A stretch of 42,984 nt of DNA, taken from IMG/VR virus record IMGVR_UViG_3300020469_000088, positions 1 through 42,984 of that record. One strand, written 5' to 3'. Under the pieces are notes generated by a model. It was not told the origin of the DNA and made no database searches. It saw only the letters and a list, made by a program, of their open reading frames with translations. The position numbers and the translations under genes are program-made. The DNA comes from a virus. How positions within the stretch are numbered: the first letter of the stretch is position 1; the number at the start of each line of letters is the position of its first letter. Positions 6,687 through 38,657 of the stretch are shown here, piece by piece.

Positions 6687-7181
6687 TTACTTGGCCTCTG
6701 ATTTGGCGTCAGACTTAGGAGCATTAGCTGCAATAAGAGCCTTGACTGCCTCTGGCAATTCTTGACCAGTACTAGGAGGCTTGGAAGATGACGCCTCCTC
6801 CTGCGCTTTCTTGACGTTAGCGTCATAAGATTTTAGCAGAGTAGCAAACTCAGGAGACATTCCTTCCAGAATAATGAGCTGCTCGCCAGACAATTTTTCA
6901 CTGATTAAGTCAACCACGTGATATTTTGAACGGCAGGAATAGGCTTGATTACCACCGTTACAAAACTCACGGGTATAAGATTTCATAACGTGGTCTAGTT
7001 GGTCATAACTAGACTCAGCTAATAGGGCAAGTAAGGCATCGCAGACAGCTCCTTGTATGGCATCCTGTAAGAAATCACCGTATAGGGCAAGCTGTGAGGC
7101 TTTAGTGGTTTGCACATTCCACATAGCTTTGGTGATAGTTGCGGGAGTGACGAACTGTCCGGAAGTAATAAAATTAGTCAT
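6687..7181 (-). CDS. Hypothetical protein, first gene of the leftward arm (164 aa)
   Basis: I chose ATG at 7181, preceded by AAAGGG about 9 bases upstream. The frame extends upstream to a TTG at 7274 but without a ribosome site. The protein is mostly helical (ATITKAMWNVQTTKASQ; LYGDFLQDAIQGAVCDALLALL), with a Cys/His-containing middle (REFCNGGNQAYSCRSKYHVVDL) and a low-complexity charged tail ending KSDAKSEAK. I recognise no family. Its place right beside the divergent control region suggests early leftward expression; a minus-strand TTGACT lies at 7273-7268, but no good -10 follows it. Confidence 0.65.
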   Translation of the reverse strand: MTNFITSGQFVTPATITKAMWNVQTTKASQLALYGDFLQDAIQGAVCDALLALLAESSYDQLDHVMKSYTREFCNGGNQAYSCRSKYHVVDLISEKLSGEQLIILEGMSPEFATLLKSYDANVKKAQEEASSSKPPSTGQELPEAVKALIAANAPKSDAKSEAK

Positions 7182-7334
7182 GGTATAAACCCTTTCAAGG
7201 TTCTGAGATATGGGGCAGCGTGTTTCCCCGTTTGCTGTGAATACACTATGCCCATATAATAACATAGGAGTCAAGCAAATAATTGCAATAATAGTGAAAT
7301 AATTTAAAACAACTTAAAGTTGATCAGAGCCGGG

Positions 7335-7570
7335 CTAATACAACTTAAAGGCGATACAACCTAAGGTTGCTCAGAGTTAAACTAATACAACCTATGGGCG
7401 ATACAACCTATGGGTTATTAGAATCGTTCTAATACAACTTTAAGGCGATACAACTTATACGGTGCTTAGAATCATTCTAATCAACTTAAAGGCGATACAA
7501 CCTGAAGCTGTTTTAGAATCGTTCTAATCTACCTTAAGCTGATCACCTTAAAGGCGAGCGAGTAAAATAA
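7335..7570 (+). repeat. 47-bp iteron array, about five units
   Basis: Units start at 7335, 7382, 7429, 7477 and 7524, each beginning CTAAT(A)CAAC or similar. The core GGCGATACAAC occurs at 7350, 7397, 7444 and 7491, exactly 47 bp apart. Three units end in the palindrome TTAGAATCRTTCTAA, at 7418-7432, 7466-7480 and 7513-7527. Partial cores AAAGGCGAG follow at about 7550 and 7584. Both halves of the unit are conserved, so this is not a repeat-spacer array. It fits protein-binding iterons for replication or transcription. Confidence 0.85.
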
Positions 7571-7625: not shown

Positions 7626-7820
7626 ACCCCTACCATGGGAAATAGCCGGACCCCTACCATGGGAAATAGCCCTACCGTGGGAAATAGCCTCGCTCCGCTC
7701 GTGGGGTCTGAGTCATACTCTGAGTAATACTATGACCCCTACCGTGGGAATTGGTTTTGCTCCGCAAGCGGCTCTGAGTCATACTAATAGTCTTACTCTG
7801 ACCCCTACCGTGGGAAATAG
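7626..7820 (+). repeat. GTGGGAA repeat cluster A (five copies)
   Basis: Five direct copies of ACCCCTACCRTGGGAAATAG lie at 7626, 7650, 7670, 7735 and 7801; the fourth ends AATT. Interspersed are copies of CTGAGTAATACTATGA and GAGTCATACTAATA. The core CCTACCGTGGG is a near-palindrome. All copies point the same way. A related cluster lies at 11317-11446 and an exact 19-base match sits inside the capsid gene. Confidence 0.85.
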
Positions 7821-8052: not shown

Positions 8053-8081
8053 TTGACTTCTGAGGCTATTTCTGGTATGTT
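8053..8081 (+). promoter_or_regulatory. Candidate rightward promoter with extended -10
   Basis: TTGACT (8053-8058), a 17-base spacer and TATGTT (8076-8081) preceded by TGG give a -35 with an extended -10. It would start the rightward arm about 55 bases before the ATG of the 528-residue gene. The same design (TTGACT, 17 bases, TGn before the -10) is seen at 11424-11452. Confidence 0.55.
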
Positions 8082-8143
8082 GATCTTGGGTCAGAATGTC
8101 TCTGGCCTGCTCACTCTGAGCTTTTTCTAATAGGAGAACTATT

Positions 8144-9730
8144 ATGATTTCCGAAGAACTAGCAGATGAATACATGCCAGACCATTGTGTAAGGCATTGG
8201 GGATTAGCACTTGCTAATTTCCCTAAGTATGAACTAGGAGACGACCCTGATCCTCTAGGTCTTGCTCGTAGGGTAAGAAACCACTTTCATTCCAGAGTAA
8301 ATCAAATAGCTCAGGAGGAAATAGATGTCTATTATCACGCTGTGAGAAAAGCACGGTTAAAAGTTAATAACGATCACATACATGGTTCTATTAGTGATGA
8401 ACAGTGTGACGCTTTATTACACATGCTCAGGAATACTTATTCTGCATATCGGTCGGTAGTTAGTGACCAGATAGAGCTAATAGTAAATACTATGTTGCCA
8501 AACCATGACCTTAAGTCTGCGGGTTTTCTGGCGCTTTGGTTAGACCAGAAGGGCAGAGATCGTGGCAGAGAGGGGCGCATTATCTTGCGTTCTGGCAAAG
8601 GTATCAGAAAGATGTTTCCTTGTCTTACTGATAAAGAAATCGAGACCCTCAATGACGAATATCGCCATGAGTTTTCGGTCAAGGAATTGACCATTCACTT
8701 TGGTCAGACTAGGGCAGACTTTGTTCGTGCCAAACACGGACCCATAGGAAAACTAGAGAACCCAGATACTAGCTCTGGTCGTAAGTTCCTTGGCAACAGC
8801 TGTATGAGATATGACTTTATCGACACTCGGAAGTTGCCTATGCAACCTACTGAGGCTTATGCCTCTGGAGATTTTACTGTCTACTGGACAGAGGATAACT
8901 CTGGCAAAATATGCAGTAATGTTATTGTATATGATGCCTCAGAGAATGATCCTGTAGCCGCACCAATATACGGCGTATGTGAAAAGTCTATTGACACTTT
9001 GCAAGAGCTCTTGTCGGAGAAAGGTATTGAGCTTTACAGTCATCACAATGGTAAAAGATGGTCAGGTGCTAGGCTCTTACGTTTTGACTATGAGGATGGC
9101 GAATATGTTGGCCCATACCTTGATGTCCAACCTCAAATTCTTAGGAAAACCGGTTGTGGTAAATATCTAGTTGTAGACCGTCACGGTGATATTAGTGGCA
9201 CTACTTATCAAGGTATCTTATACGGTGACGGACAGAGCTGCTCCTGTTGCAATGATAGTATTCGTCGGGGTAATGAGTATTACTATAATCACGATACTTA
9301 TTGCTCTGACTGTTACCATGACCGTATCAGGCAGTGTAGCTATTGCGGCGATGACACAGAGATAGACGACTGCACCACGGTGCAGACTGAAACCTCTGAT
9401 TACGAGGAATACTGTTCTCACTGTACGCATCAGCATACTGTTGTCACCTGTAGCGGCGAGACTTGGCTAGAGAGTGACACTAGGGTAACTGCAAATGGTG
9501 ATACTATTAGTGTTGATGAATATGACGCTTCTTACTTTACCTCTGACTGGGACGGGGAAATCTATCCAGATCATAACTTAGCCCCATTAGAGAACGGTGA
9601 CTCTGTATCTCTTACAGAAGTAGCAAATCACCCAGACTATTACCTTTGTGATGACACTGGACTATGGAAAGAAAAACCAGATGACAACTCAGACGACAAC
9701 AACCCGACAACCCCTATTACTGAAAGCTAG
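8144..9730 (+). CDS. Cysteine-rich zinc-site protein, first rightward gene (528 aa)
   Basis: I do not recognise a named family. The N-terminal 300 residues are largely helical and charged, with many His and Arg residues early on. Residues about 366-430 carry four paired cysteine knuckles (C366/C369, C387/C390, C398/C401, C424/C427) that resemble a double treble-clef or LIM-like zinc module. The tail is acidic, with DNSDDNNPTTP near the end. Such modules usually mediate protein or nucleic-acid contacts. AGGAG lies about 8 bases upstream of the ATG. As the first gene after the rightward promoter it may act early in host takeover or regulation, which is inference. A metallopeptidase gene follows after 7 bases, so the two are probably co-expressed. 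Confidence 0.75.
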   Translation: MISEELADEYMPDHCVRHWGLALANFPKYELGDDPDPLGLARRVRNHFHSRVNQIAQEEIDVYYHAVRKARLKVNNDHIHGSISDEQCDALLHMLRNTYSAYRSVVSDQIELIVNTMLPNHDLKSAGFLALWLDQKGRDRGREGRIILRSGKGIRKMFPCLTDKEIETLNDEYRHEFSVKELTIHFGQTRADFVRAKHGPIGKLENPDTSSGRKFLGNSCMRYDFIDTRKLPMQPTEAYASGDFTVYWTEDNSGKICSNVIVYDASENDPVAAPIYGVCEKSIDTLQELLSEKGIELYSHHNGKRWSGARLLRFDYEDGEYVGPYLDVQPQILRKTGCGKYLVVDRHGDISGTTYQGILYGDGQSCSCCNDSIRRGNEYYYNHDTYCSDCYHDRIRQCSYCGDDTEIDDCTTVQTETSDYEEYCSHCTHQHTVVTCSGETWLESDTRVTANGDTISVDEYDASYFTSDWDGEIYPDHNLAPLENGDSVSLTEVANHPDYYLCDDTGLWKEKPDDNSDDNNPTTPITES

Positions 9731-11181: not shown

Positions 11182-11206
11182 ATACTCATACAATTATTAA
11201 TACTAA

Positions 11207-11238
11207 GGCTCTGAGTAATACTCAGGGTCTTTTTCTTT
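11207..11238 (+). terminator. Rho-independent terminator of the early block
   Basis: GGCTCTGAG (11207-11215) and CTCAGGGTC (11221-11229) pair over 9 positions with two wobbles around the loop TAATA, followed by TTTTTCTTT. It follows the 49-residue gene by 25 bases. It would separate the first rightward transcript from the operon that starts at the promoter near 11424. Confidence 0.7.
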
Positions 11239-11316
11239 GTCTTATTAAAACCAGGACTATTACTCAGACTAATACTAAGAGTCATACTAATACTCTTAGG
11301 CCGGGCATTACTAATA

Positions 11317-11446
11317 GCCCTACAATGGAAAGCCCTCCGTGGGAATTTGGCCCCTACGTGGGAATTTAGTGTGACATTTTTGCCACCCCTACGTGGGAAT
11401 TTGTACCCTACGTGGGAATTTTGTTGACTCCTACGTGGGAATTTGA
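11317..11446 (+). repeat. GTGGGAA repeat cluster B (five copies plus one degenerate)
   Basis: Direct copies of CCCCTACGTGGGAATTTG occur at 11333, 11351, 11385, 11405 and 11428, with a decayed copy at 11317. Compared with cluster A the core is one base shorter and followed by AATTT rather than AAATAG. Upstream (11279-11292) is GAGTCATACTAATA, identical to 7776-7789 in cluster A. The last copy sits inside the spacer of a candidate promoter. No gene lies between 11182 and 11474. Confidence 0.85.
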
Positions 11447-11452
11447 TCTAGT
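11424..11452 (+). promoter_or_regulatory. Candidate rightward promoter with repeat in its spacer
   Basis: TTGACT (11424-11429), 17 bases, then TCTAGT (11447-11452) preceded by TGA as an extended -10. The whole spacer is copy five of repeat cluster B, so any protein binding the repeat would sit between -35 and -10. It would drive the operon starting at 11475. The match is by consensus only. Confidence 0.45.
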
Positions 11453-11474
11453 GCTGGCAGTAAAGGAGAAAAAA

Positions 11475-11690
11475 ATGATAAGTCGTGACCAATTTATGAA
11501 GATGTATGACGAGTACGGAGAGTTAATGACTAAATTAAAAAGAGTGCAGAAAGAGAATGAGAAACTGCGTGAAAGCTACGAGATTCTTAAACGTGAGGCT
11601 GACTACTGGGAAAGGGAAGCTAAGAAAATGAATGAGAAAAACCACAAGCTAAGGGCACAATTAAAATTATGGATGGGAACAGGTAAATGA
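11475..11690 (+). CDS. Small coiled-coil protein (71 aa)
   Basis: I chose ATG at 11475, which has AAAGGAG at ideal spacing. The open frame upstream reaches into the repeat cluster and is not credible as coding. Almost the whole protein is a heptad-like charged helix (MTKLKRVQKENEKLRESYEIL, then ADYWEREAKKMNEKNHKLRAQL), so it should form a parallel or antiparallel coiled coil. No family or activity is evident. The next gene overlaps its stop (ATGA). Confidence 0.7.
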   Translation: MISRDQFMKMYDEYGELMTKLKRVQKENEKLRESYEILKREADYWEREAKKMNEKNHKLRAQLKLWMGTGK

Positions 11691-23147: not shown

Positions 23148-23404
23148 TGGCTAAATGGAAAGAAACAGTTGCACCCTTTAACCCTCGTGACGACATGGTT
23201 AATCACCCACCCCATTATGGAACAGGTAACATCGAGTGTATTGATTACATTGAAGACTTCTTAACCAAAGAGGAGTATATCGGATACCTACGTGGGAATA
23301 TTGCCAAGTACTTACATAGGTGGCGCTATAAGAATGGCATAGAAGACCTAAAGAAAGCCGAGTGGTATGGGTCTAGGTTGATTAAGGTGGTGGGTGATGC
23401 CTGA
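23147..23404 (+). CDS. DUF3310 protein (related to T7 gp1.7 region)
   Basis: The family core is clear: VNHPPHYGTGNIECIDYIED, then YLRGNIAKYLHRWRYKNG, then DLKKAEWYGSRLI. DUF3310 proteins are common in T7-like and marine phages. T7 gp1.7, which I recall as belonging to this family, has nucleotide kinase activity, so a role in nucleotide metabolism is possible. I chose ATG at 23147 (TGATG overlap) over a GTG three bases earlier. The codons for YLRGN contain the 13-base string CCTACGTGGGAAT shared with repeat cluster B. Confidence 0.8.
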   Translation: MAKWKETVAPFNPRDDMVNHPPHYGTGNIECIDYIEDFLTKEEYIGYLRGNIAKYLHRWRYKNGIEDLKKAEWYGSRLIKVVGDA

Positions 23405-37655: not shown

Positions 37656-38657
37656 TTATTGAACGATACCGTTAAAGAAGTAACCCAAGTCTGGGCCAAC
37701 TACTTTCATGTCGTAGGACATTTTAACTTGAATGTGCTCTGCGACTTGCTGACGCTTGAGTGCATCATCCGAGAAGGACTCAACAGTAATACCCAGATTG
37801 TTTGCTCCGGGAATCGAGTTCCATGCAAAGGTCATACCAGCGGCAGGGGTCATAAGACCGGCATTTGCTGGTGTGTGACACAACATAGCATGTTTACCAC
37901 CGATAAAGGCAGTATTCTCAGCAGCACCTTCTACAGCAGTATTTCTTACTGCTTCCATGATGTAGAGATTCTGTACTTCAAAGATTTCAGCCAACTTAGC
38001 ATCTGTGATCAGAGCAGGGTTGCTGACAGTCGAGCCACCGTTGAGGCGAGCTAGAATGTCTGGGTGGTTAATCAGAATGTCACGAACTTCTTTACCAATA
38101 ACCATAGTGTTTGGCTTGTAGCCACCAGAGGTAAGCTGCATAGTACGGCGAGCCTCTGTAACATTCTGGATAGGTGTTGAGTTAGTGTAGTCGTTCCAGT
38201 AGATAGGAGTACCTGCACCAGAAGCAGCACCAGACACACTAGTTGTCCAGACACCGTTAGCGAAGAAGGTCGAAGCAAACTGCTCCTCACGGTGGATCAT
38301 CAGGCGCATAGCCAGAGTCTCCGCACCCGCTTGACGGATTTGTAGTACTTCGTCTTCGTTAGCAATAGTCTGCTCGTCGAAGTCCATACCAAGGCCATAC
38401 ACATCAGCAAAGTAGCTGCTGTTGGAGATAGCCATACCGATACGGTTAACCTCAGTGCGTGGCGCAAGTTTCTTTACGTCACCAGTGCGGTTCATGTTGG
38501 CACGGTCATAGATGTAGTACTTGTCAGACTGACGAGCTACCCCTACCGTGGGAAATACCTTATCTGCGATAAAGTTCTCTTGTGATTGTGCATAGGCCAG
38601 TGTCAAGTTAGACAGCGGGCGGTCGATATGCACCTGTGATGGTGTCAATAGTGGCAT
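37656..38657 (-). CDS. Major capsid protein (HK97 fold)
   Basis: The 333-residue protein has the capsid pattern: RPLSNLTLAYAQSQENFIAD, KVFPTVGVARQSDKYYIYDR, a long helix with QIRQAGAETLAMRLMIHREE, GGYKPNTMVIGKEVRDILIN, and a final beta region (VESFSDDALKRQQVAEHIQV). AAGGAAAC precedes the ATG. It is made with scaffold and protease from the genes just upstream. The codons for VFPTVG contain, on the opposite strand, a 19-base exact copy of the intergenic repeat (38539-38557). Confidence 0.92.
   Translation of the reverse strand: MPLLTPSQVHIDRPLSNLTLAYAQSQENFIADKVFPTVGVARQSDKYYIYDRANMNRTGDVKKLAPRTEVNRIGMAISNSSYFADVYGLGMDFDEQTIANEDEVLQIRQAGAETLAMRLMIHREEQFASTFFANGVWTTSVSGAASGAGTPIYWNDYTNSTPIQNVTEARRTMQLTSGGYKPNTMVIGKEVRDILINHPDILARLNGGSTVSNPALITDAKLAEIFEVQNLYIMEAVRNTAVEGAAENTAFIGGKHAMLCHTPANAGLMTPAAGMTFAWNSIPGANNLGITVESFSDDALKRQQVAEHIQVKMSYDMKVVGPDLGYFFNGIVQ

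Follow-up and report, generated by a model that had tools for sequence, protein, structure and literature searches.

Short asymmetric operator and stoperator sites, with an operator overlapping the early promoter Pleft and a consensus specific to each genome, are described for the cluster A mycobacteriophages L5, Bxb1 and D29 (PMC9283540, PMC6550527, PMC5712189). D29, which is lytic, has kept the L5-type sites and lost the repressor (PMC5712189). Phages of the L5 type are temperate or recent derivatives of temperate phages, marked by integrase or partition genes; their 20-30 sites are spread genome-wide, mostly in short intergenic gaps and oriented with transcription, and their repressor is homologous to L5 gp71. 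In the P22 Arc type the repressor site lies between the -35 and -10 hexamers, Arc being a ribbon-helix-helix protein on a symmetric operator, and promoters of the MerR-activated type have a 19-20 base spacer with a symmetric site.

We analyzed the IMG/VR virus record IMGVR_UViG_3300020469_000088 (42,984 bases), from a marine phage, whose whole length is called the window. Its closest isolate is Roseobacter phage CRP-6 (MK613348; 76.5% amino acid identity in the capsid protein and 56% in the DNA polymerase), and phages of the CRP-6 type are ubiquitous in marine viromes (PMC6918029). The MK613348 record annotates neither a repeat nor a promoter at the array before gp01 that is treated below. The part of the literature searched has nothing on such arrays or on promoters or regulators of CRP-6-type phages, and the word 'promoter' is absent from the main text of the two papers on CRP-6 and its relatives.

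The locus under study, cluster B, is like the sites of L5, Bxb1 and D29 in having short asymmetric sites in one orientation, one of them at what appears to be an early promoter, with a spelling that varies by genome. Unlike L5-type sites, those of the window stand close together in arrays ahead of operons, solitary ones being few and only possible (11 in two arrays, including a decayed copy, and 2 solitary inside genes), and the candidate operator lies in the promoter spacer. Tyrosine integrase PF00589 matched in 0 of 10 records, several of which may be fragments, and a repressor was not found. By analogy, cluster B may work like an L5-type operator/stoperator system; we do not file it with that system, because neither the genome-wide spread of sites nor temperateness was found. 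A repressor site in the spacer is common to the Arc layout and to our reading of cluster B, but here the site is asymmetric and the ribbon-helix-helix family RHH_1 was unmatched in eight records. The MerR type does not fit, the spacer here being 17 bases and the site asymmetric. Nearest is the CRP-6 array, whose last copy likewise falls in a 17-base spacer, at the first operon in CRP-6 and at the second in the window.

Cluster B and its last copy

By comparison with CRP-6, the early genes of the window lie on the + strand from 8144 to about 23400, with structural genes on the - strand on both sides. The first early operon has a repeat-free promoter-like pair, TTGACT-17-TATGTT (8053..8081, +). 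A terminator-like hairpin lies at 8109-8121, between that promoter and the ATG at 8144, in a stretch largely kept in relatives. Another (11205..11231, +; 12 pairs, loop of 3, T-rich tail) divides the first early operon from cluster B. The second early operon starts with the ATG at 11475, preceded by AAAGGAG at 11463-11469, and its first gene (11475..11690, +) encodes a 71-aa protein with coiled-coil-like matches.

An earlier note on this DNA claimed five copies of a repeat, plus a decayed one, before the operon at 11475, and this was borne out. The pattern CCCCTACGTGGGAATTTG, with up to three mismatches, has five matches in the whole window, all on the + strand and all inside 11332-11445, far above the shuffled sequences (mean 0.02; five reached in 0 of 100 shuffles). 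The copies lie at 11332..11349 (two mismatches), 11351..11368 (one), 11386..11403 (the exact consensus), 11405..11422 (two) and 11428..11445 (one), with start-to-start distances of 19, 35, 19 and 23. The decayed copy, CCCTACAATGGAAAG (11318..11332, +), is conserved in relatives.

Copy 5 sits between TTGACT (11424..11429, +) and TCTAGT (11447..11452, +), which are separated by 17 bases (11430-11446); the -10-like hexamer lacks A at position 2 and is preceded by TG at 11444-11445, and the start would fall near 11459. The note had the last copy exactly occupying this spacer. The copy is in the spacer and the promoter parts are where the note placed them, but 'exactly' is too strong: the 18-base copy begins two bases inside the -35 hexamer, ends one base before the -10 and covers 16 of the 17 spacer bases. 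A standard consensus scan, which accepts only -10 hexamers with A at position 2, omits this promoter. When scored without that requirement, using assumed hexamer frequencies, TTGACT-17-TCTAGT is the best candidate in 11290-11475. Judged from the window alone, the case for a promoter is thin. A sigma54 promoter, seen by eye only as TGG-N8-TTGC over copy 4 of relatives, was discarded, being lost in the window.

An imperfect palindrome, GTGACA-N4-TGCCAC (11371..11386, no strand assigned), separates copies 2 and 3; it reads GTGACA-N4-TGTCAC in L025 and L040, and may be the site of a second protein or an RNA hairpin. The repeat itself was rejected as a hairpin or inverted repeat: a repeat search gave no inverted repeat within the array, and the middle bases of the copies vary without matching changes. 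We think it very improbable that the repeats act in RNA, as a leader element transcribed from a start further upstream. The RNA of the array does fold somewhat better than its shuffles (z -2.14, with 6 of 200 as good), and the palindrome is changed on both sides in L019. That reading is opposed by the lack of an Rfam match, by the variable middle bases with no compensating change inside a copy and by the position of the repeats, which lie upstream of the predicted start in 12 of 15 tested arrays.

Arrays in relatives

In an alignment of the window with 15 distinct related contigs, the order and orientation of array B are kept in all 16 sequences and its exact spacing in 15. The position of the decayed copy reads CTACAATGGAAAG in 13 of the 15 relatives and CTACAGTAGAAAG in L011 and L021. 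At the -35 position 14 relatives have TTGCAC, one has TTGTAC and none has the TTGACT of the window; at the -10 position TTTAGT occurs 11 times, TCTAGT three times and TACTGT once. In L040, L025 and some other close relatives, a promoter-like site elsewhere in the region has the highest hexamer score. A small open reading frame (ORF) follows the array in 12 of the 15 and contains a further motif copy, CCCTACGGTGGAAAATG or close; it is absent from L027, L028, L040 and the window (11453-11474).

Arrays with other spellings show the same geometry. In CRP-6 an array spelled CCCTCCGATGGAAAA stands directly before gp01, its last copy filling the 17-base spacer from TTGACC to TAGAGT. Four CRP-6-like contigs (L226, L228, L229 and L230) have a repeat of about CCCCCAGTGGAAAT between TTGACC and TAAAGT, and L227 has nearly the spelling of CRP-6. 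Repeat-like sequence is likewise enclosed by TTGCAC-17-TAAAAT in L033 and by TTGCCC-17-TAGAAT in L032, so that TTGNNC-17-TANANT surrounds the repeat in CRP-6, L226-L230, L032 and L033. In L031, L032 and L033 the array again follows the peptidase gene (best segments 51-59% amino acid identity there), with its spelling changed. The -10 elements of CRP-6, L226-L230, L032 and L033 are better than that of the window. The promoter claimed around copy 5 gains from this recurrence of a copy in a 17-base spacer, but is weakened by a -35 hexamer unique to the window among the 16 aligned sequences and by TCTAGT, a poor -10.

We scored the hexamers flanking every copy in 15 arrays: those of the window, L040, L033, L032, CRP-6 and L226-L230, and five of 14 close relatives (L009, L019, L025, L027 and L028). 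The best-fitting pair flanks the promoter-proximal copy in all 15: this is the last copy in 12 of them and, in L226, L228 and L229, the last but one. For nine arrays, mononucleotide shuffles reach the score of the top copy in 0-10 of 2000 trials; the remaining six, at 119-199 of 2000, are individually weak. Because the arrays share ancestry, these are not 15 independent events but come from about three lineages (the window group with L040, L032/L033, and the CRP-6 group).

CRP-6-like phages carry two alleles of the array. Copies differ at a mean of 2.84 of 16 positions within a phage (31 pairs) and at 6.08 between alleles (117 pairs), although the flank is up to 97% identical right to the edge of the array (157 bases aligned between L229 and CRP-6). 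In L228 and L229 some copies deviate from their own allele. An additional copy follows the -10, ahead of the ATG, in L226, L228 and L229.

No such array was found downstream of the peptidase gene in L034-L039 and L041, and the one relative among genome contigs, of 6.9 kb, lacks it. BLAST of the array against cultured phages gave two matches only, both at chance level, and a search for more distant arrays through the L032 gene returned L032 itself only.

The window has a second array of the family, cluster A (7627..7820, +), with five copies of the variant CCCTACC[AG]TGGGAA and no promoter in any spacer. It lies about 230 bases upstream of the TTGACT-17-TATGTT pair, a conserved promoter whose own region is free of repeats and alignable in 14 loci of relatives. 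No convincing hexamers were found around any copy of cluster A in the window, L021, L025, L027, L040 or L042, of either L031 array or of two arrays in the L005 record; the best scores in these ten arrays run from -9.4 to 4.5. The note had offered the embedded promoter as a regulatory model for the repeat family. That generalization fails on cluster A, L031 and L005, and the spacer position is therefore a property of some arrays, not of the family.

Such arrays could also be iterons of a replication origin that lie next to promoters by accident, a reading we consider improbable. They are short tandem asymmetric repeats adjoining A+T-rich simple sequence in intergenic DNA, and the minimum of cumulative GC skew falls in segments that span 5-9 kb and take in the region of cluster A. 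However, the skew tracks gene direction and so says little, one genome has two separate arrays of different spelling, and iterons would not explain a copy fitting a 17-base promoter spacer in several lineages.

A second repeat family, with a unit of about 16 bases, is ATACAACYTAAAGGCG-like at 7335-7528 of the window and reads TGTCAC/GTTGCA in CRP-6 (L204 44504-44740); in either phage it occupies the late side of the divergent region. CCTACATGGGAA occurs in the loop of a terminator-like hairpin between converging operons in L125 (1448) and at the matching place in L126-L132; the loop in the window differs.

Two solitary copies lie inside genes of the window. An exact 18-base copy of the cluster A repeat runs antisense to the capsid gene (38540-38557). 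The DUF3310 gene contains the 12-base core of the B repeat (23287-23298), which encodes LRGN there, and several relatives retain the same codons. Of the 24 closest relatives listed (L044 to L067), 22 retain the 13-base core of the capsid site, but synonymous conservation there ranks only 42-43 among 327 windows, which is not exceptional. The two sites compare with a mean of 0.50 in synonymous shuffles (reached by 10 of 150), a weak excess that is partly shared by descent, and at three mismatches there is no enrichment (two sites against a shuffle mean of 3.63). All sites are on the + strand, the direction of early transcription; the capsid site opposes its gene, and synonymous shuffles give the same strand bias. 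Given the unexceptional capsid conservation and the weak enrichment, we rejected the solitary copies as selected sites. A match in L148 near the DUF3310 gene was judged to be chance: its region is a different one and aligns with other coding sequence.

Search for a regulator

Pfam searches of the tested ORFs of the window gave no convincing helix-turn-helix domain. Neither HTH_3 nor RHH_1 matched in any of eight records, the control for RHH_1 being positive in 10 of 14 genomes. PF00940 (T7-like phage RNA polymerase) also matched in none of eight, but its control was positive in no genome either. Two ORFs were considered as regulators and set aside. For the 180-residue ORF at 6687-7229 the model was helical and of low confidence (pLDDT 65.7), and no PDB entry matched it under E 0.001. 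The 528-aa ORF at 8144-9730, the largest of the early ORFs without an assignment, was modeled with pLDDT 72.3 and pTM 0.45, with no match under E 0.001 and none in CRP-6.

It is quite improbable, in our view, that the array is a relic of a temperate ancestor, on the pattern of lytic D29, with its retained L5-type sites and lost repressor (PMC5712189). The lack of a tyrosine-integrase match in the ten records and of a recognised repressor family (HTH_3, RHH_1) would suit a relic, but several of those records may be fragments, and two observations point to selection acting now: the arrays are near-identical in 15 contigs, and in CRP-6-like phages the allele changes across the copies.

Gene gp14 of CRP-6 (L204 3586-4101), annotated as hypothetical, is sigma-like (phrog_1740, E 1.3e-7), with 48% to 98% identity among near relatives. 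A phrog_1740 search found nothing in eight records, but it missed the gp14 homologue in G005 and so has little weight as a negative.

A protein of this kind enters an unlikely reading in which the repeats are sites of an activator or alternative sigma factor: a phage factor on the repeats would recruit polymerase, and dependence on that factor would explain why the window group has poor hexamers. Both the -10 and the -35 of that group are weak, and gp14 diverges in L228 and L230 (48-59%) more than most of its neighbours do. Against this, L226 has a gp14 98% identical over 152 of 171 residues and yet carries the other array allele, and a gp14 homologue was not found in the window. An activator is also a poor match for the good host-type hexamers of L032, L033 and the CRP-6-like phages, and for the copies that three phages have downstream of the -10.

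A candidate operator array

On balance, and with moderate confidence, we read cluster B as an array of operators through which a repressor would block host RNA polymerase at the promoter of the second early operon. Transcription by the host enzyme with its main sigma factor would begin near 11459, directed by TTGACT-17-TCTAGT. The asymmetric repeats would be bound by a sequence-specific protein, encoded by the phage or, less likely, by the host. Binding to copy 5 would mask the promoter spacer and repress initiation, and the copies further upstream would increase occupancy locally.

Four points favour recognition of an operator by a protein: the array keeps its order, orientation and almost always its spacing; it keeps its place after the peptidase gene while its spelling changes; copies agree within a phage, whereas the two alleles differ between phages with near-identical flanks; and in three CRP-6-like phages a copy lies past the -10 and before the ATG. 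Since related phages with other spellings are built alike, the repeat is probably the switch site of a putative regulator. Repression is favoured because of that further copy, in what we infer to be a usual repressor position, and because of the usual 17-base spacer; where fair hexamers stand 17 bases apart, no activator is required. Counting against the operator reading are the window's -10 without A at position 2, its unconserved -35, the six individually weak arrays among the 15, the better promoter-like site elsewhere in L040, the lack of an embedded promoter in cluster A, L031 and L005, the better-than-shuffled RNA fold and the absence of a matched regulator gene in the searches above.

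A spacer-operator promoter recurring in several spellings pins down both a site and a start position, and its DNA could serve as bait to isolate the regulator. A wider suggestion, which we consider doubtful, is that CRP-6-type phages have operators of heteroimmune style with neither an integrase nor a known repressor found: a repressor of an unrecognised family would silence the early genes, all operator copies would change spelling together from one near-identical phage to another, and phages that share a spelling would, on co-infection, silence each other's early operon. If spelling does decide cross-regulation, superinfection groups would be predictable from sequence.
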